From a virus: a stretch of 50,207 bases of DNA. Positions 1 to 50,207 of the stretch are shown here, one piece after another (position 1 is the first letter of the stretch; every line of letters begins with the position of its first letter). The position numbers and the translations under genes are program-made. The notes beneath the pieces were generated by a model, which saw only the letters and a list, made by a program, of their open reading frames with translations, was not told the DNA's origin and ran no database searches. The DNA lies in IMG/VR virus record IMGVR_UViG_3300005253_000377, positions 1 to 50,207 of that record. One strand, given 5' to 3'.

Positions 1-44
1 ATGTTGCAGGGCCTCATCTTCAGTTTACCACAACCTCAGACAAT
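1..44. repeat. Near-identical terminal overlap, left copy
   Basis: These 44 bases match 50164-50207 with 4 mismatches (window positions 4, 8, 18 and 31). Both copies lie in the same reading frame of one tail-fibre gene. Joining the ends through the overlap keeps that frame open. This is most simply a circular assembly with strain variation in the overlap; a tandem fibre repeat or a genuine short terminal repeat are alternatives. Confidence 0.8.
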
Positions 45-7210: not shown

Positions 7211-7419
7211 TCGAGTTCCTCTTTAATCCATTTCACTATATCAGAATTTTCAAAATCCCCGCTATAAATAATATCTAATTGTTTCAACACTTTTTTTAAA
7301 GCTGCTCGCCAGATTTCTTCATCTGCTAACATACCTAAATTTTCTCTTCTCGCAGATTGACAAGTATGTGAAGATCTTGATGCTCTGTGTTTATCCCACC
7401 ACTCACTAAAATTTTTCAT
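7207..7419 (-). CDS. Trp-AAL family small protein, paralog 3
   Basis: 70 residues, MKNFSEWWDKHRAS at the start and EEIWRAALKKVLKQLD at residues 35-50, then IVKWIKEELE. The N-terminal aromatic helix and W-x-AAL core match the two following genes. The start overlaps the upstream stop by four bases. Function unknown. Confidence 0.65.
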   Translation of the reverse strand: MKNFSEWWDKHRASRSSHTCQSARRENLGMLADEEIWRAALKKVLKQLDIIYSGDFENSDIVKWIKEELE

Positions 7420-7730
7420 CTATCTAACTCCAAAATTAACTCATCAACCGCCCAGTCAGTCGTGTACCACTGACCGTACTTCTTCCTGGCCCGGAGTACA
7501 CAACAACAACCACTGTTAGATACCAGCCCCGTACTGATCCAGGCTCGGATTCGTGTAATTGTTATATCAAGATGATATGTCTTCTTGATGTAACGTTGTG
7601 CATCCCTGAGCCTTAAAGTTTTCTCGATTTTGTCTGTATTGTTCAGGATTATCTCCCTGCATGAATGGATTTGCAGAATTTCCAGAATTATAATGTTGCC
7701 AGGGTGGGTCTTCATCAAGCACCCACACAC
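7416..7730 (-). CDS. HTH-like small DNA-binding protein (start uncertain)
   Basis: The convincing part is the last 65 residues: LRLRDAQRYIKKTYHLDI, a helix-turn-helix-like stretch resembling MerR/excisionase-type proteins, then RARKKYGQWYTTDWAVDELI. The upstream 35 residues overlap the neighbouring gene at 7567-7956 in another frame and look unconstrained. The true start may be downstream at a non-ATG codon near 7640, because no ATG occurs between the Met codons near 7715 and the domain. A regulator or a small replication accessory protein is possible. Confidence 0.55.
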   Translation of the reverse strand: MCGCLMKTHPGNIIILEILQIHSCREIILNNTDKIEKTLRLRDAQRYIKKTYHLDITITRIRAWISTGLVSNSGCCCVLRARKKYGQWYTTDWAVDELILELDR

Positions 7731-8432: not shown

Positions 8433-8704
8433 TCAACACCTGCTTTTCTTAATTGAAGTTTAACATAATTTACAAAGCTACGTGCACCATTTTTATTTTC
8501 AAAAAGAACCATTACCTCAAAGGGTATTGGATAATAATCATTATCAATCCATACGTTTATAAATTGTTCTTTTTCATCAAGTACAAGGTGGAAATCTTCA
8601 GTAACAAAATGTACTAAAGTATAATAAAGTAATTCTTTCATTTGCTCTAATGTTATAGCATTTGATGGAAACACCCACCGTTTTAATCGTTTTAACAATC
8701 TCAT
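8429..8704 (-). CDS. Hypothetical protein
   Basis: 91 residues: a basic N-terminus (MRLLKRLKRW), then a helix and a beta-rich middle (INVWIDNDYYPIPFEVMVLF). No known motif. The start overlaps the primase-helicase stop by four bases and the end overlaps the lipoprotein start, so it is co-translated in the leftward operon. Confidence 0.6.
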   Translation of the reverse strand: MRLLKRLKRWVFPSNAITLEQMKELLYYTLVHFVTEDFHLVLDEKEQFINVWIDNDYYPIPFEVMVLFENKNGARSFVNYVKLQLRKAGVE

Positions 8705-10983
8705 GTTGGACTCTCCAAATATCTCACCGCCGCATCAGGTAATATCGACACACTCTTGCGACCACGAACTTTATCTCTTACAATATCTTTCAAACGCGGG
8801 AAGACAACAGAAAATGTTCTGCCAAACCAGACGCGACTGTAGACTGAATAACCACTTTCTTTAAACCAAGCTCGATGCAGGTCAAACAGTTGATCATTAG
8901 AAACCCAAGCATTAGAATCGTCAAAGTTAAAGCATTGTTTACCCATTGCTGCCATCGGTGATGTCATATATCGTAGTTCTTCTTTAGCAACTTTTGAAGT
9001 CGCTGGCACTATAAACTTATTAGTTTGCTTCAGATCACGCAACCCCTCGATAGCCCAGTTTATGATGCCTGGGACTTCTTTTATAAGCTGCTCTTTCAAT
9101 AAAACATTCGGGGCATCTTTGAAAGATCTACCGAAGTAGAGCATGTTAACTCTGCGTTCCAGGGCTTGTGCATTATCAACGAAACGTGGTAGCACATCAC
9201 ACTCATAAGTCAACCGGGCAAACGGCTCGGTATCATAAGAAACGCCATATTTAACACGAACACTAAAAATATTACGACCTGTTAATCGTTTAATTACTTG
9301 AAGGATCATATCAGCATCAGCTTTTTTTGTTGCTTGATCTTCAGAAAATATTACTGAGTTTTTATTAACAAGTTTTTCCATACCAAAAGTATATTTAAGA
9401 TCTTGAGATTCTAACGGCGTACACTTATCTTTTCCCAACATCTCATATAAAACTTTTGTTATTGTGCTCTTGCCAGACCCTGATACGCCGAACAGGATCA
9501 TCATAGCTTCTAAGTAATTGGTAGCAATGAGGTTATAACCATACCATTGTTGTAGTAATCGAATGGAATCATTATCTTCACCCCACCAGTCTCGCAACGT
9601 CACCTGCCAAAGCGGGTAATCAGCATCAGAATCATAATTCCAGGGTACAGTTGACGTAATGTAAAGTTCAGGTTTTAATTTTGTAAAACTATTTGTTTCT
9701 GTATTTAACACACCGTTCTTAAATACAATCTGTTTCTCACGATCAAATTCAAGCGTGCTTTTATATCCCTCAATAATAAACGGTTCATCTACATCCGAAC
9801 CGTTGCGTATCTGGGTTGCAGTTTTGAGTTCATATTTAATCCCTCGAAATTTATACTCATCACGAAGATATGGTTTGCGTGATGTGACTATTTCATCCTT
9901 CACTTTTTTTGTTTCAATGTAATATTTATCTCGTACATAATCACGAAGGTTACTGTCTAATATATCCTTCTCAACCTTCTTATAACGCACGCCGTCATAC
10001 CGCCAGAACTCTCCGCGATGATGTCGAAATAAAGTATAGATACCATCAATGTGTAACTCTTTAAGCCATTGTTCTGCTATAGTTGAAGACAATGGACTGT
10101 CTAAAAGATCATCATCAGTTTTAGTATCCGCATTAGTGTCGATGTATTTAAGTAACTCTTCATTCGTTAGCCCATGTCTGACCCAATCACGCAGATCTTT
10201 AACTCCGGTCGGCGGCATGATCTTAGATACTTGCTTACAGAACTTTTGAAGTTTAATGAAAGTAACCTCCATCCCTTCCTCGCCAGCACCACTATCATTC
10301 TCACCTATGATTATTGTCTTTTTCCCTCTAAGAACTCTTGTAAGCCCAGTGATTCCTCCGGTAGCCGAAGGTTTACCCACAGCGACGAAACCCAGGTCGT
10401 GAGCCGCGAGAACATCCGACGCACCCTCGACCACAAGGATCGGGTGCGATGAACTTGATAATAAACTATTGTTCTTGCTTGATTTGTTAGCTGATTTACT
10501 CCCATCCAACACGTGTAACCATCCAGCATCACCCACTTGTATTGTGTCTTTGGTTTTGTATTCAGATCTGGGACATATAACTTCACTTGGATCTTCCGGG
10601 TTTTGTCGTGAGACAAGACACCAATCAGGTCGCCCACAGATCGGACATTTAACACCTGCGGTCGAAACTCTAATGAAATCAGTGAGCAATGATCGTCCAT
10701 GCTTTTTCCCTTTCTTAAAATCTGGGTTTAAAATGTATGAAAGTCCACGTTTGGAACTTTCCACCATATATTTCTTACCGTTCATATATCGTCTTAACAA
10801 GCCGATGATCTCGCCCTTAGCATTTCGCTCGGCGAAGATCCAGGCTTGTTCATGGAACCAGAAGCCAACACCGAGGGCTTTAATTGCATCAGTGCTCGCG
10901 TTGAGGTCGTCCGCGAGAAGCTGAACCATGCCCTCGGTCATGTTGGCCTGATATGTTGTGAACTGATCAGATAGGTTTAGCAT
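8701..10983 (-). CDS. Primase-helicase, D5/SF3-like
   Basis: 760 residues. In order: an N-terminal domain; a zinc-ribbon-like segment VKCPICGRPDWC near residue 113; a Toprim-like segment with VVEGASD near 183 and IIGENDSGAG near 225; a middle primase-C-terminal-like domain; and an SF3-type ATPase with Walker A GVSGSGKST near 495 and an acidic Walker-B-like FSEDQ about 45 residues on. The combination of zinc ribbon, Toprim and D5-like helicase indicates a fused primase and replicative helicase acting at the phage fork. The gene lies just downstream of the SSB-like gene, separated by an inverted repeat at 10992-11064 that precedes its ribosome site. Confidence 0.85.
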   Translation of the reverse strand: MLNLSDQFTTYQANMTEGMVQLLADDLNASTDAIKALGVGFWFHEQAWIFAERNAKGEIIGLLRRYMNGKKYMVESSKRGLSYILNPDFKKGKKHGRSLLTDFIRVSTAGVKCPICGRPDWCLVSRQNPEDPSEVICPRSEYKTKDTIQVGDAGWLHVLDGSKSANKSSKNNSLLSSSSHPILVVEGASDVLAAHDLGFVAVGKPSATGGITGLTRVLRGKKTIIIGENDSGAGEEGMEVTFIKLQKFCKQVSKIMPPTGVKDLRDWVRHGLTNEELLKYIDTNADTKTDDDLLDSPLSSTIAEQWLKELHIDGIYTLFRHHRGEFWRYDGVRYKKVEKDILDSNLRDYVRDKYYIETKKVKDEIVTSRKPYLRDEYKFRGIKYELKTATQIRNGSDVDEPFIIEGYKSTLEFDREKQIVFKNGVLNTETNSFTKLKPELYITSTVPWNYDSDADYPLWQVTLRDWWGEDNDSIRLLQQWYGYNLIATNYLEAMMILFGVSGSGKSTITKVLYEMLGKDKCTPLESQDLKYTFGMEKLVNKNSVIFSEDQATKKADADMILQVIKRLTGRNIFSVRVKYGVSYDTEPFARLTYECDVLPRFVDNAQALERRVNMLYFGRSFKDAPNVLLKEQLIKEVPGIINWAIEGLRDLKQTNKFIVPATSKVAKEELRYMTSPMAAMGKQCFNFDDSNAWVSNDQLFDLHRAWFKESGYSVYSRVWFGRTFSVVFPRLKDIVRDKVRGRKSVSILPDAAVRYLESPT

Positions 10984-24486: not shown

Positions 24487-24768
24487 TCAAAATTTCATTA
24501 TAATGTGGTTATCCATCCAGGATTCATAAGACAATATCTTTCCATGATTGTCATAATCATTCAGATTACCAGTATGCGGAGTTCGTGGTCGAATAAAACC
24601 CTTATAGAACAACTGCGGAGCTTTAGCTTTGAGTCGCTTGAGCTGCACATAGACCGTGTTCAAATGACAGTGTAATAACAAGGCTGCGTTCTTATAAGCC
24701 AGCCCGTAATGGTCTGGTGAACATAGCCGATAAGCTTCTTCTTCGTTTTCTGTAATCAAACGGTTCAT
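24487..24768 (-). CDS. HTH transcription regulator, sigma-r4-like
   Basis: 93 residues. EEAYRLCSPDHYGLAYKNAALLLHC followed by HLNTVYVQLKRLKAKAPQLF forms a helix-turn-helix like sigma region 4 or LuxR-type domains (xxAALLLxxxxxTVxxxLxRLK). The C-terminal 35 residues are polar (RPRTPHTGNLNDYDNHG). It could regulate the phage promoters. Four-base overlap with the DpnD/PcfM-like gene. Confidence 0.65.
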   Translation of the reverse strand: MNRLITENEEEAYRLCSPDHYGLAYKNAALLLHCHLNTVYVQLKRLKAKAPQLFYKGFIRPRTPHTGNLNDYDNHGKILSYESWMDNHIIMKF

Positions 24769-28680: not shown

Positions 28681-28870
28681 ATTGTAACAGCTGTTCTCGT
28701 ATGGCTTGACCGCCACAATCAGCCGTGTCTTTGACTTCGCAGGTTTCACAGACTGATAGGCCGTCAAATTGTATTAACCAGCACTCACCTGTCAATTTGC
28801 TCTGGTCTATCATTTTACTTTCAGTAATGACCACTTGCCCGTTTTCGATTTTAGCTTTTTGATACAACAT
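28679..28870 (-). CDS. First leftward gene, hypothetical protein
   Basis: 63 residues from MLYQKAKIENGQVVI at 28870 (GGGAG 7 nt upstream; an ATG at 28876 is poorly placed). Beta-rich N-terminus, LTGECWLIQFDG, then CETCEVKDTADCGGQ with three Cys. It is the first gene after the outward promoter at 28911-28939, so probably immediate-early. Function unknown. Confidence 0.65.
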   Translation of the reverse strand: MLYQKAKIENGQVVITESKMIDQSKLTGECWLIQFDGLSVCETCEVKDTADCGGQAIREQLLQ

Positions 28871-28910
28871 AATCAATCTCCCTTAGTTTAATTGTTCTGT
28901 TCATATGTAA

Positions 28911-28939
28911 AGTATAACACATATCAGAACATAATGCAA
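28911..28939 (-). promoter_or_regulatory. Leftward early promoter of divergent pair
   Basis: TTGCAT at 28939-28934, 17-bp spacer, TATACT at 28916-28911. Both hexamers and spacing are identical to the rightward promoter at 29538-29566. The predicted transcript enters the gene at 28679-28870 and the leftward operon. Confidence 0.8.
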
Positions 28940-28967
28940 GCATAATCTCGTAATATTATGAAAATAT
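28911..28967 (-). repeat. 57-bp inverted repeat, left arm (contains promoter)
   Basis: Its reverse complement matches 29510-29566 at 48 of 57 positions. The shared text includes ATATTTTCATAATATT, AGATTAT, CTTGCAT and TGATAT. The arms enclose the iteron region, and both promoters point outward. Confidence 0.85.
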
Positions 28968-29027
28968 ACAGTAATCAGTAATATGTCAAGCTAATGTCAC
29001 TCACTTAGTCTGATAATCACGTAGATA

Positions 29028-29328
29028 ATGATAGTAACAAGGCCGATATGATAGTATATGATAGTAAGAAAAGGCTTACTATGGTATTATAAATGCTTAT
29101 AGTATAAGAGTTTACAAGCGAAATGATAGTATATGATAGTAAAACCCAAAAAAATAAAACTCATTAAGAGCTATACTCTATACTACCTTATATACGTATA
29201 TTGACTTGACATACATAATATCCCTATGAAACTTTTACTCATTATACTATCTATACTATACTATTCCTTCTTTATACTATCAAAAAGAAAGAAAGTATAG
29301 TATAGTAAGAGTATAGTATATGATAGTA
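29028..29328. repeat. Iteron-like array of ATGATAGTA
   Basis: Six direct copies at 29028, 29048, 29058, 29123, 29133 and 29320. Two pairs are 10 bp apart, one helical turn, as tandem TATGATAGTA. Inverse TACTATC copies occur near 29245 and 29275. Between 29240 and 29312 the sequence is an imperfect large palindrome (TACTAT/ATAGTA rich). The region is very AT-rich. This pattern fits a replication origin with initiator-binding iterons, or a multi-operator regulatory site. Confidence 0.7.
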
Positions 29329-29363
29329 AGCAATGGTCAATAGTAGATTATAGTAAAATCGGG

Positions 29364-29379
29364 GATTACAAGTGTAATC
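29364..29379. promoter_or_regulatory. 16-bp palindromic operator-like site
   Basis: GATTACA-AG-TGTAATC, perfect 7-bp arms with a 2-bp centre, inside the control region. Size and symmetry fit a dimeric HTH regulator site. Confidence 0.55.
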
Positions 29380-29509
29380 GTACATAGTTTGATTACTTTG
29401 TTAAACATTGTTTGATAATGTAGTGGTGGGTCGGCTGTGTCCGGGCAACGCACGCACAACAGAGTATAAATCATATCAGATACGCACGCCCGCTCTATAA
29501 TGTGCCAAT

Positions 29510-29566
29510 ATATTTTCATAATATTGTGAGATTATACTTGCATAATGTTATGATATAGTGTATACT
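29510..29566 (+). repeat. 57-bp inverted repeat, right arm (contains promoter)
   Basis: Inverse match of 28911-28967 (48/57). Differences cluster in the spacer just upstream of the -10 box. Confidence 0.85.
29538..29566 (+). promoter_or_regulatory. Rightward early promoter of divergent pair
   Basis: TTGCAT at 29538-29543, 17-bp spacer, TATACT at 29561-29566. Transcription would run through the small gene at 29605-29751, the CA repeat, and stop at the terminator at 29805-29835, giving an RNA of about 260 nt. Confidence 0.8.
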
Positions 29567-29604: not shown

Positions 29605-29751
29605 ATGAAATTGCTTATTGTAACAAATGATAATCAAGTGATAGACACAATCGGGGACATCGAAGAGTACAATCTTGATAAGCCGATAGCGAGGGCAAGT
29701 CTGATTGATGATATACAAGATATTATCAAGAGACAAGAAGTAAATCAATAA
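29605..29751 (+). CDS. Small early protein, rightward
   Basis: 48 residues: MKLLIVTNDNQVIDTIGDIE, then EYNLDKPIARASLIDDIQDIIKRQEVNQ-like acidic helix. GAAAGGATAAG precedes the ATG. It is the only gene on a short transcript between the early promoter and a terminator, so it may be a regulator or host-takeover protein. No HTH visible. Confidence 0.65.
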   Translation: MKLLIVTNDNQVIDTIGDIEEYNLDKPIARASLIDDIQDIIKRQEVNQ

Positions 29752-29799
<48 letters not shown>

Positions 29800-29804
29800 C
29801 CATC

Positions 29805-29835
29805 AAGCCAGGCACACACGCCTGGCTTTCTTTTT
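29805..29835 (+). terminator. Rho-independent terminator
   Basis: AAGCCAGGC, loop ACACA(C), GCCTGGCTT, then TCTTTTT. A 9-bp GC-rich stem with a T-run ends the short rightward transcript from 29561. Confidence 0.9.
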
Positions 29836-29957
29836 GCTTACGCTTGCCCCCCGGTCGTACCCTTGCATCGTGTGTGCGGGAGGAGGTTGGACCCCCCTTT
29901 CTTGGTAGATCAGAAGACACGATTTTTCCTCACTATGTCAAGAACTTCTTCGTACTG

Positions 29958-30066: not shown

Positions 30067-30095
30067 TTGACTGAGAAGTTGGATTGTGGTATAAT
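30067..30095 (+). promoter_or_regulatory. Sigma70-type promoter for the rightward (late) unit, family copy e
   Basis: TTGACT at 30067-30072, 17-bp spacer ending GGATTGTGG, TATAAT at 30090-30095. From TTGACT through TATA it is identical to the leftward copy at 16887-16915. The start site near 30102 precedes the structured RNA and the late operon. Confidence 0.85.
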
Positions 30096-30101
30096 AGAGA
30101 T

Positions 30102-30228
30102 TGAAATGAAGATAGAATGAACACATGGCTTGAATTGGAATCAATGTTGGTTGCAACAGCAGTATTTCGAATTGATAGGTGATTGCAAGCACTTATTAGT
30201 TTAAGCCATGTGTTTGTTCTATCTTTTT
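30102..30228 (+). ncRNA. Structured RNA with 22-bp closing stem
   Basis: 30110-30131 pairs with 30203-30224 over 22 continuous base pairs (20 Watson-Crick, two G-U). A 71-nt inner region can form further short stems (ATCAAT/ATTGAT, GTTGCAAC). Five U follow at 30224-30228, then AAGGGG of the next gene. It may be a discrete phage sRNA ended by its own terminator, or a leader controlling late transcription. It does not obviously match 6S or a phi29-type pRNA. Confidence 0.65.
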
Positions 30229-30238
30229 AAGGGGTATG

Positions 30239-37606: not shown

Positions 37607-38758
37607 ATGACTACAGACGCAGGCAAAAAGCAATTAGACGCTGATCAAGATTTCGATATAACTGACGAAATGGAAGCCAAAATGCAAGCACGTTTGGATG
37701 GTGTAATTAAGCCAGACGATGCTGATCTCGAGGGCGTTCCTCGCCTTGAGAAAAAAAATGATAGCAAGGATGATAGCAAGGATGATGAAAAAAATGATAG
37801 CAAGGATGATGAAAAAAATGATAGCAAGGATGATGAAAAAAACGATAGCAAGGATGATGAAAAAAACGATAGCAAGGATGATGAAAAAAACGATAGCAAG
37901 GATGATGAGGATGACGAGAAAGTAGAATACGTACTTCCTGAAAACTATTTTCAGGCGATGCGACACGTAGGGTGGGAACCTGAAAGGATTAAGGAAAAAT
38001 TTGAAGAAGATCCAGAACAAGCCTTAAAGGATTTCAAGTTTTACCATGATTCTCAGAACTACATCACGCAGCAGACTTCTGATCTCGGACGCACGCAAAA
38101 GGCGGCAACTGAGCGAGCTACTGAAGAGGCTGTCAAGAAAGAAGAGAAGCCTGAGTTTAAGGGTGTGGATTTGAAGGCTGTTGAAGATGAGTTTGGTGAA
38201 GATAACCCTGCTGCTGTGGCGATAATTAAGGCGATGAATGAAAACAATAAAGTGTTATATGATGAAGTTCAATCGCTTAAAGAGGTTCGCCAACAGCAAC
38301 AGGGACCGTCTGATGAGCAGAAGGTAATTTGGAATACTATCGTTACTCATTTTGATAGTGATAGTATGAAGGGTTTCGGCGAGTTTTATGGTAAGACTGA
38401 ATCTGGTAAAAATTGGGATCAATCCTTAACAGGTGCTCAGTTACAGGCACGTATGAATGTAATACATGAAGCTGATGCGTATCATGCTGGTATGAAGCTT
38501 CAGGGAAAAGACGTAGAATTTTCTGGGGCACTTAATCGTGCTCATTTAGTTATAAGTGCTCCTATACAGGAAACTATTCTACGTGAACAACTTCATGGGA
38601 AGATTAGGAAACGCAGTAAAGGAATTACTGTGAAGAGTTCGGGCAGGAAGGCCGTAGATGATACTTCTTCTAAGAAGAAAGATACTTCTGAAAAAGGATT
38701 TATAGAAAAAACAAAACAGCGTATAAAAAAGATTACTGGTAGAACGCCAGAATCTTAA
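37607..38758 (+). CDS. Scaffolding protein candidate
   Basis: 383 residues, highly acidic and helical. Residues 50-105 are tandem DSKDDEKN repeats encoded by a 24-bp DNA repeat. The middle (NYFQAMRHVGWEPERIKEKFEED) and coiled coils follow (NKVLYDEVQSLKEVRQQQQ). The C-terminus is basic (KKDTSEKGFIEKTKQRIKKITG), as expected for a scaffold that contacts the capsid. Position before the capsid gene supports the role. The repeat number may vary between isolates. Confidence 0.7.
   Translation: MTTDAGKKQLDADQDFDITDEMEAKMQARLDGVIKPDDADLEGVPRLEKKNDSKDDSKDDEKNDSKDDEKNDSKDDEKNDSKDDEKNDSKDDEKNDSKDDEDDEKVEYVLPENYFQAMRHVGWEPERIKEKFEEDPEQALKDFKFYHDSQNYITQQTSDLGRTQKAATERATEEAVKKEEKPEFKGVDLKAVEDEFGEDNPAAVAIIKAMNENNKVLYDEVQSLKEVRQQQQGPSDEQKVIWNTIVTHFDSDSMKGFGEFYGKTESGKNWDQSLTGAQLQARMNVIHEADAYHAGMKLQGKDVEFSGALNRAHLVISAPIQETILREQLHGKIRKRSKGITVKSSGRKAVDDTSSKKKDTSEKGFIEKTKQRIKKITGRTPES
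37772..37915 (+). repeat. 24-bp tandem repeat (DSKDDEKN codons)
   Basis: GATAGCAAG starts at 37772, 37796, 37820, 37844, 37868 and 37892, exactly 24 bp apart, plus a half-unit at 37760. Copies differ by a few silent changes (AAT/AAC). A likely slippage-prone VNTR inside the scaffold gene that keeps frame whatever the copy number. Confidence 0.95.
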
Positions 38759-45757: not shown

Positions 45758-45975
45758 TGATACTTGGATTCCCAGTAAAAGGATTATTTCTTGGCTTGCA
45801 GTCAAGTAAACAGATTCCAGATACGAGCAGAGATCTCAATAATGTAAGGCCACTTTTTGATGGCCGTTTCGTAGGTGGTCAGCGTCCAGGACTTGATAAA
45901 TGGGGTGCGGGTACGCAGGTCGGAGATGCGGAACAGCCTGTGGTTGCAATGTGTACTGTAAGCTCGGTGGTATAA
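45757..45975 (+). CDS. Tail hub / P22-gp10-like protein, N-terminal fragment
   Basis: 72 residues. MILGFPVKGLFLGLQSSKQI, then DLNNVRPLFDGRFVGGQRPG and LDKWGAG, ending VVAMCTVSSVV. The NNVRP and RGGQRPGLDKW-type text is what I expect at the start of podovirus tail-hub or head-closure proteins, where it normally continues into a beta-propeller. Here it stops at TAA (45973), and the next gene begins in the same frame at the next codon. Confidence 0.6.
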   Translation: MILGFPVKGLFLGLQSSKQIPDTSRDLNNVRPLFDGRFVGGQRPGLDKWGAGTQVGDAEQPVVAMCTVSSVV

Positions 45976-46968
45976 ATGACTATTAGTTGGGCAGAAACAC
46001 GACCAGCAGGTGATGCAAACAAAAACTGGAGGGGTGTTGCATCAGATTCAGATGGCTCTAATTTGATAGCAGCCGATTTCGGTGGAAGACTTTGGACTTC
46101 AGATGATTCAGGAGTGTCTTGGACGGAACGTCGACCAGTAGGTGATGTAAATAAAGATTGGTTATGCGTTGCGTCAGACTCAGATGGTTCTCATTTGATA
46201 GCAGGAATATATGGTGGGAGACTTTATACATCAGCTAATTCTGGAGTTGATTGGACAGAGCGGCAACCGGCGGGAGCAGTTGATATAAATTGGTTTAGTG
46301 GAGCATCAGACTCGGATGGATCTAATTTGATTGTTGGTGCATCTTCTGGGAGACTATATGTTTCTATTGATTCTGGAGCTAATTGGACAGAGGAACGACC
46401 AGCAGGTGATGCCTCTAAACAATGGATATGTGTAGCATCAAATTCAGATGGTTCTCGTTTGATAGCTGGAGCATACGCAGATAGATTATATATTACAGTA
46501 TCTTTACCTGGTAAACCAACAAACCCATCACCTACTGATACAGCGTCAAGTATTACATTAGATGAAACTCCGTTAAGCTGGGATGCTTCTAATCCTGCTG
46601 CTGATACTTATGAAGTTTACTTTCGTAAATCAGGGGATGCTTGGGGACTGGTCGGAGTAGCTCAAGCGGGTGTTTCGTGGGCTGTTTCTTTTGGTACACT
46701 GGCTTATGGAACTACTTACGAATGGAGAATAGATGCTACAAATGATGCTGGACCAACAACGGGAGATACTTGGTCGTTTGATACTATTAGTTTTGATCAA
46801 CCGCGAATAAGTTATAGACTTATAAGCGGTGGAAATGGTCGAGGGCCGTATGATAGTCCGCCGGGAGTGCAAGGAACAGATTGGGAATATACGGGTGAAA
46901 ACAATATGTTGACAGTCAGGAAATTAGTAGTGGCCGCTAATGATAAAATCTGGCATGAGAGTATATAA
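45976..46968 (+). CDS. BNR/Asp-box propeller plus Fn3 tail protein
   Basis: 330 residues. Four repeats of about 43 residues contain WTERRPVGDVNKDW, VASDSDGSHLIAG, GRLYTSANSGVDW, the BNR/Asp-box-like S-x-D-x-G-x-x-W motif. A fibronectin-III-like domain (LSWDASNPAADTYEVYFR, YGTTYEWRIDATND) follows near 195-270. The end MLTVRKLVVAANDKIWHES resembles the start of the next protein (IKRLVVAGNDDIYYEDL). It looks like an insertion between the N-terminal fragment and the main hub. Probably exposed on the virion and able to bind glycans. Confidence 0.65.
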   Translation: MTISWAETRPAGDANKNWRGVASDSDGSNLIAADFGGRLWTSDDSGVSWTERRPVGDVNKDWLCVASDSDGSHLIAGIYGGRLYTSANSGVDWTERQPAGAVDINWFSGASDSDGSNLIVGASSGRLYVSIDSGANWTEERPAGDASKQWICVASNSDGSRLIAGAYADRLYITVSLPGKPTNPSPTDTASSITLDETPLSWDASNPAADTYEVYFRKSGDAWGLVGVAQAGVSWAVSFGTLAYGTTYEWRIDATNDAGPTTGDTWSFDTISFDQPRISYRLISGGNGRGPYDSPPGVQGTDWEYTGENNMLTVRKLVVAANDKIWHESI

Positions 46969-49677: not shown

Positions 49678-50207
49678 TGGCCCAAACAGGTAAAATAATA
49701 CCAACTATTCCACCGAATGATCCTGAAGCTACAAGACGAGCTTTGCAAAAACTCGCTTCAGTGAAACTCGGACCTGGTGCAAGCCCTACGTTTGCAGGAC
49801 TGACACTTACTGATCTTACTGCGTCTGCTTTAGCTGGTACTAATGCCAGCAAACTGTTAGAGTCAGTGACAGTTGGAACTGGTCTTGACTATACCCGGCC
49901 AACTCTATCATTATCTCATCTTGGGATAGAAGACCTCACTGATCCTGATGCTGATAGGATTTTATTCTGGGATGATACTGCGTCTGCATCTAAATGGTTG
50001 GGTATGGGTGACTCCATAGTAATCACTGATGTCACTATTGACACCATTCAAGATATTAGAACATCAGCAAGCCCAACATTTGAGAAAGTTGGGGTTGGGA
50101 CGGCAACTATCCCTCATGGTGGGGTGGGATATGCAAAGCTCGCTATAGATGGGACAAGTTCAAATGCTGCGGGGCCTCATGTTCAGTTTACCATAACCTC
50201 AGACAAT
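49677..50207 (+). CDS. Tail fibre protein, N-terminal part (continues at position 1)
   Basis: 177 codons open to the window edge, ATG overlapping the previous stop (TAATG). MAQTGKIIPTIPPNDPEATR, LASVKLGPGASPTFAGLTLT, DADRILFWDDTASASKWLG and SASPTFEKVGVG are typical of phage fibre shafts; the N-terminus should attach to the tail. The final AAGPHVQFTITSDN matches VAGPHLQFTTTSDN at the left edge, so the full protein would be about 535 residues. Confidence 0.8.
   Translation, partial: MAQTGKIIPTIPPNDPEATRRALQKLASVKLGPGASPTFAGLTLTDLTASALAGTNASKLLESVTVGTGLDYTRPTLSLSHLGIEDLTDPDADRILFWDDTASASKWLGMGDSIVITDVTIDTIQDIRTSASPTFEKVGVGTATIPHGGVGYAKLAIDGTSSNAAGPHVQFTITSDN
50164..50207. repeat. Near-identical terminal overlap, right copy
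   Basis: Right-hand partner of 1-44 (40/44 identical). In the fibre frame, three of the four differences change an amino acid (V/A, L/V, T/I) and one is silent, a pattern compatible with population variation. Confidence 0.8.

Follow-up and report, generated by a model that had tools for sequence, protein, structure and literature searches.

In bacteriophage lambda, iterons bound by the O protein lie beside AT-rich DNA in the early region, inside the O gene itself, and the function of this origin requires both O and the host DnaB. PICI origins have been described as 'always' consisting of two iteron sets around an AT-rich region, a layout reported for PICIs alone (PMC6092414). In SaPI Rep, the iterons are recognized by the C-terminal domain, and the primase part of the SaPI5 protein is of the AEP type (PMC7581432), while in P4 alpha a winged helix binds the origin repeats (PMC4234260). 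A modular origin whose repeats change with the DNA-binding domain of the initiator has also been reported for RepA of PLE, the satellite of ICP1 (PMC8263062).

The locus described here lies at 28.91–29.57 kb of a 50.2-kb virus contig (IMG/VR record IMGVR_UViG_3300005253_000377; 50,207 nt), the whole of which is referred to as the window. Its sequence and a structure model of one phage protein make it likely that this region is where a member of an uncultivated phage clade starts its DNA replication, and that it also serves as the early promoter hub.

Genome context and iteron arrays

The leftward genes of the window span approximately 6.5–28.9 kb and encode a primase-helicase, a split family-A DNA polymerase, an exonuclease, a Sak4-like annealing protein and nucleotide enzymes, and the rightward genes include terminase and portal. 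No lysogeny or repressor gene, integrase or recombinase was found among the proteins scanned, and the phage is apparently lytic. Searches of 50,697 phage records returned no DNA match to phage isolates, the candidate capsid protein had no match among phage isolates, and a search of genome contigs for a host or prophage yielded no relatives. Scanning viral contigs with the terminase, a near-array protein and the primase gave a clade of relatives of approximately 45–51 kb, whose contigs were then read; in total, 30+ related phage contigs were compared. Further features of the window include an HNH endonuclease gene (18043–18480) between the two genes of the family-A polymerase (16917–19652, minus strand), a 68-aa protein (23936–24142, minus strand) whose only match is to the RecG wedge domain (E 1.4e-8), and in-frame tandem repeats in the plus-strand structural genes at 37723–37926 and 45951–46492, made up of 12-bp units that code for D/S/K-rich stretches and of a 132-bp unit present four times.

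The segment between the two promoter arms described below contains the iteron array alone, which is noncoding and located at the divergence of early and late genes (Table 1). The six copies of ATGATAGTA counted in the earlier note are all present (29028, 29048, 29058, 29123, 29133 and 29320), accompanied by one inverse copy, TACTATCA, at 29275. The word TGATAGTA occurs seven times in the array, compared with 0.09 expected, and elsewhere in the 50 kb as two single copies (21470 and 38359). These 8-bp iterons are arranged as sets of five and three around an iteron-free core, and GC content over 200 bp is nowhere in the contig lower than in the array (0.24 versus 0.41). The 16-bp palindrome that had also been noted is found at 29364–29379 in interrupted form, GATTACA-AG-TGTAATC. 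In the GC-skew check suggested for this locus, the cumulative minimum falls at 29281, inside the array, but the skew does not separate replication from transcription, as the genes change direction at this very point. The minimum lies inside or near the array in the window, G006 and G008, and in the relatives the promoter-to-terminator segment shows mixed skew.

Table 1. Features of the proposed origin and early promoter region, with the candidate initiator gene
Feature	Position	Strand	Details
Primase-helicase, proposed iteron-binding initiator in trans	8701-10983	-	C-terminal winged helix, residues ~676-755
First conserved early gene, ~63 aa	28679-28870	-	67-78% identity in G008, G013, G014
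Predicted leaderless 17-aa peptide, MNRTIKLREIDYVVSKS	28851-28904	-	ATG 6 nt past left-arm -10
Left arm, putative class A promoter	28911-28968	-	-35 TTGCAT 28939-28934; -10 TATACT 28916-28911; extended -10 TG
Left iteron set	29029-29141	+	TGATAGTA at 29029, 29049, 29059, 29124, 29134; two tandem pairs 10 bp apart
Iteron-free AT-rich core, proposed DNA unwinding element	29142-29244	.	103 bp, GC 0.26
Right iteron set	29245-29328	.	29245 (-, one mismatch), 29275 (-), 29321 (+)
Right arm, putative class A promoter	29509-29566	+	-35 TTGCAT 29538-29543; -10 TATACT 29561-29566
48-aa gene behind right arm	29605-29751	+	Different gene at same place in every relative read
Predicted intrinsic terminator of right-arm transcript	29805-29838	+	-16.8 kcal/mol, z -5.4
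Class B promoter TTGACT-17-TATAAT, rightward late operon	30067-30095	+	Present in relative L005 as well

The layout is conserved across the clade. In nine genomes (the window and eight relatives), two iteron sets of 2–6 and 3–5 copies surround a central iteron-free gap of 100–222 bp with a GC content of 0.19–0.33, which is the largest gap in all nine, the iteron words having been picked per genome after inspection with variants allowed. The arrays of the relatives are likewise noncoding and located at or near the early/late switch. The iteron word itself varies, being TGATAGTA in the window, TCTAGGTA in G008 and G027, TCTGGGTA in G009, G010 and G035, GTCTATG/GTCTAGG in G034 and GTCTATA in G044, and is strongly over-represented where it was counted in relatives (9 versus 0.08 expected in G008 and 8 versus 0.04 in G009). 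Between G009 and G008, GTCTGGGTA is replaced by GTCTAGGTA through the same base at all six aligned sites, and such concerted substitution is what sites recognised by a single protein would be expected to show. The window array gave no significant alignment with those of most relatives in either orientation; thus, homology at this locus rests on layout and position. Short motifs had hinted that the origin block as a whole is inverted compared with the relatives; this idea was dropped, since most of their arrays do not align significantly with that of the window either way.

Promoter arms and early transcription

The earlier note had described a 57-bp inverted repeat (28911–28967 and 29510–29566) with outward-facing TTGCAT-17-TATACT promoters, and both elements hold as claimed: the arms are identical at 48 of 57 positions, and the promoter motif is exact in each. 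A BLAST comparison of the region with its own record returns 88% identity over 58 bp (E 6.6e-14), the local alignment score of left versus right is 33, whereas 500 dinucleotide shuffles reach at most 13, and weaker similarity between the arms reaches 88 bp at 74%. Both arms represent the same promoter module (class A), which recurs across the clade, with upstream similarity as well, at 17 distinct sites; in the relatives, this module is single and in direct orientation. Its −35 and −10 hexamers, 17-bp spacing and recurrence upstream of early genes in relatives are of the sigma70 type. A second class (class B), TTGACT/A-17-TATAAT, is found upstream of other operons, that of the rightward late genes among them. 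Any other promoter pair from the same genome agrees at 40 of 57 positions or fewer, and the window arms, as the closest of all such pairs, stem from a recent duplication or homogenisation in this lineage.

Promoters, like terminators, were called here as consensus matches, and the position of start codons lends the class A and B sites further weight. Of 41 distinct class A/B promoters, 19 have an ATG exactly 6–7 nt past the −10 hexamer, compared with 0–4 at other offsets, and four further promoters have GTG at 7 nt. This peak speaks for genuine promoters with leaderless messages, which would be widespread in the clade. Within the window, the minus-strand promoters at 28911, 27506 and 25075 belong to this pattern, and the left arm would drive the leftward early genes. 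Hydrophobic 25-aa peptides such as MNRLYNNITAVDMLWLVVLAYLALC lie right at class A promoters of G008 and G009 (L020 7755–7832, L143 6660–6740 and similar), with look-alikes at other early places; these are possibly small membrane proteins.

The symmetric launching of leftward and rightward early transcription that had been proposed for this locus is rejected. The transcript of the right arm is predicted to end after a single 48-aa gene, where it meets a strong terminator (29805–29828), and what follows rightward is not an early programme under the right arm but the late operon, which has a promoter of its own. In one relative, the short gene preceding the terminator is zinc-ribbon-like, and its place has the look of a spot at which early host-takeover genes are exchanged. 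A (CA)n microsatellite (29752–29798, plus strand) separates the 48-aa gene from the terminator. Just past the late promoter, a 26-bp inverted repeat followed by TCTTTTT (30109–30225, plus strand) forms a predicted, very stable leader hairpin (30105–30232; −53.9 kcal/mol, z −10), possibly a terminator or an antitermination control of the late operon; judged by eye, L005 is without such a leader repeat.

The relatives point to the source of the mirror image. In G008, G009 and G010, both class A promoters face early genes, the order being P1, small genes, terminator, array, P2 and early genes, with P1 and P2 approximately 1.1 kb apart and the array located behind the terminator. Among the relatives in which both promoters were located and the window, the mirrored layout occurs in the window only, where the promoter–small gene–terminator unit is reversed relative to the relatives. 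Judged by these layouts, mirror symmetry is a peculiarity of the window phage.

Candidate initiator, proposed mechanism and alternatives

The primase-helicase contains D5_N and SF3-type ATPase domains (PF08706, E 3.4e-10). Its structure was modelled at full length (mean pLDDT 86.9), as the C-terminal 120 residues folded alone gave a poor model. Residues 290–758 of the model resemble SaPI5 PriRep (7ola, Z 30.7 over 384 residues), residues 1–293 resemble DnaG primase (2au3, Z 16.6), and the last 85 residues follow the strand/helix order of a winged helix; the C-terminus of the primase-helicase of one relative scores against the RFX DNA-binding and Pox_D5 models. The primase-helicase of the window is a likelier binder of the array than the two small phage proteins put forward earlier as HTH proteins, of which one (24487–24768) has sub-threshold HTH matches alone and the other (7416–7730) none. 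The primase gene lies approximately 18 kb from the array, and no iteron word was found near it, at 7.5–12 kb. Covariation of the C-terminal domain with the iteron word was considered as well; it is suggestive in the G008/G009 group and inseparable from general divergence, as the domain varies with the word no more clearly than the rest of the protein.

The view of the locus as a combined origin and early-control region fits well with a conserved, noncoding, AT-rich iteron block and promoter-type arms. The best explanation is a PICI/P4-type iteron origin located approximately 18 kb from the gene for its initiator and between early promoters. The C-terminal winged helix of the primase-helicase would bind the two TGATAGTA iteron sets, probably as two hexamers, whereupon the AT-rich core between them would melt and the enzyme would unwind and prime in both directions, as reported of SaPI Rep and P4 alpha. 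On each side of this origin, a copy of the sigma70-type early promoter of the phage would act, the left one starting the long leftward early operon with the replication genes and the right one yielding a brief transcript that stops at the terminator and carries a single small gene that changes fast.

The array could alternatively be an operator or enhancer, on whose repeats a phage regulator controls the flanking early promoters while replication starts elsewhere. This is unlikely, given that two sets with an iteron-free AT-rich core suit an origin better, that the scanned proteins yielded no repressor or lysogeny gene, and that in the relatives the array lies behind a terminator, with P1 and P2 approximately 1.1 kb apart, even though in the window it is directly upstream of both promoters, a weak HTH protein (24487–24768) is present and a concerted change of the word is expected for any DNA-binding protein.

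Packaging offers a second alternative, in which the array is a pac or cos site recognized by the terminase. The ends of the window (1–44 and 50164–50207) have 44 bp in common at 91% identity, and many contigs of the clade are self-closing, with overlaps of 101–141 bp at 98–100% identity, which suggests circular or permuted genomes. These overlaps occur at various places, so the ends are not fixed at the array. Several relatives' contigs do end near the skew minimum, and the large terminase gene is approximately 4 kb downstream of the array; however, most contigs ending near the array are without overlap, as assembly breaks in repeats predict, and the set/core/set layout is unexpected of a pac site. 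A packaging role is accordingly considered very unlikely. Least probable of all is that the inverted arms bound a mobile element or form an invertible switch, as might be imagined from two 57-bp arms around 0.54 kb that are the most alike same-genome pair and from the reversed promoter–small gene–terminator unit, since each arm is a promoter module of the clade, single and direct in relatives, only the array lies between them and the scanned proteins included no recombinase.

Comparison with known replicons

The iteron-origin reading leads to a broader and more tentative proposal, which we regard as possible though rather doubtful: that in an apparently lytic clade of 45–51-kb phages, the 'PICI-unique' origin layout is the standard replicon, served in trans from approximately 18 kb and placed within an early promoter hub, its iteron word being swapped fast and in concert, perhaps in escape from origin-recognising satellites or nucleases. 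If so, replicons of this type in satellites and in phages would share ancestry. Should the iteron-origin reading itself be right, the statement that ties the layout to PICIs alone (PMC6092414) would need widening, and the origin would be readable from sequence throughout the clade by its two iteron sets, AT-rich core and PriRep/P4-alpha-like helicase. The natural variants of the iteron word, together with the related initiators, could then be used to study joint changes in specificity.

Among the known systems, lambda ori is similar as a phage origin of iterons adjoining AT-rich DNA in the early region; however, the window array is noncoding, and its candidate initiator is itself both helicase and primase. 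The RepA/iteron origin of PLE is likewise modular with changing repeats, covariation with the initiator being a PLE feature; RepA_N, however, belongs to an unrelated protein family, and PLE itself is a satellite. The alpha protein of the satellite phage P4 unites, as the window protein appears to, three parts in a single polypeptide: a Toprim primase, an SF3 helicase and, at the C-terminus, a winged helix. In contrast to P4, the window has no second iteron cluster like crr (seven of the nine TGATAGTA copies of the contig are in the array), its iteron word is different, and a divergent early promoter hub is the site of its proposed origin. The pri-rep-ori module of PICIs and SaPIs shares with the window short iterons in two sets around an AT-rich region and a D5_N-type helicase, whose fold is closest to SaPI5 PriRep (7ola, 7om0) and for which a C-terminal DNA-binding domain is predicted here. 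PICIs themselves are integrated islands with int and repressor genes that take their capsid from a helper phage. The window is nevertheless not an island but a complete phage that encodes terminase and portal itself, with no integrase among the proteins scanned, and its primase part is of the DnaG/Toprim type, unlike that of SaPI5. Finally, whereas the PICI origin lies directly 3' of rep, the window array is approximately 18 kb from the initiator gene and is placed between early promoters.
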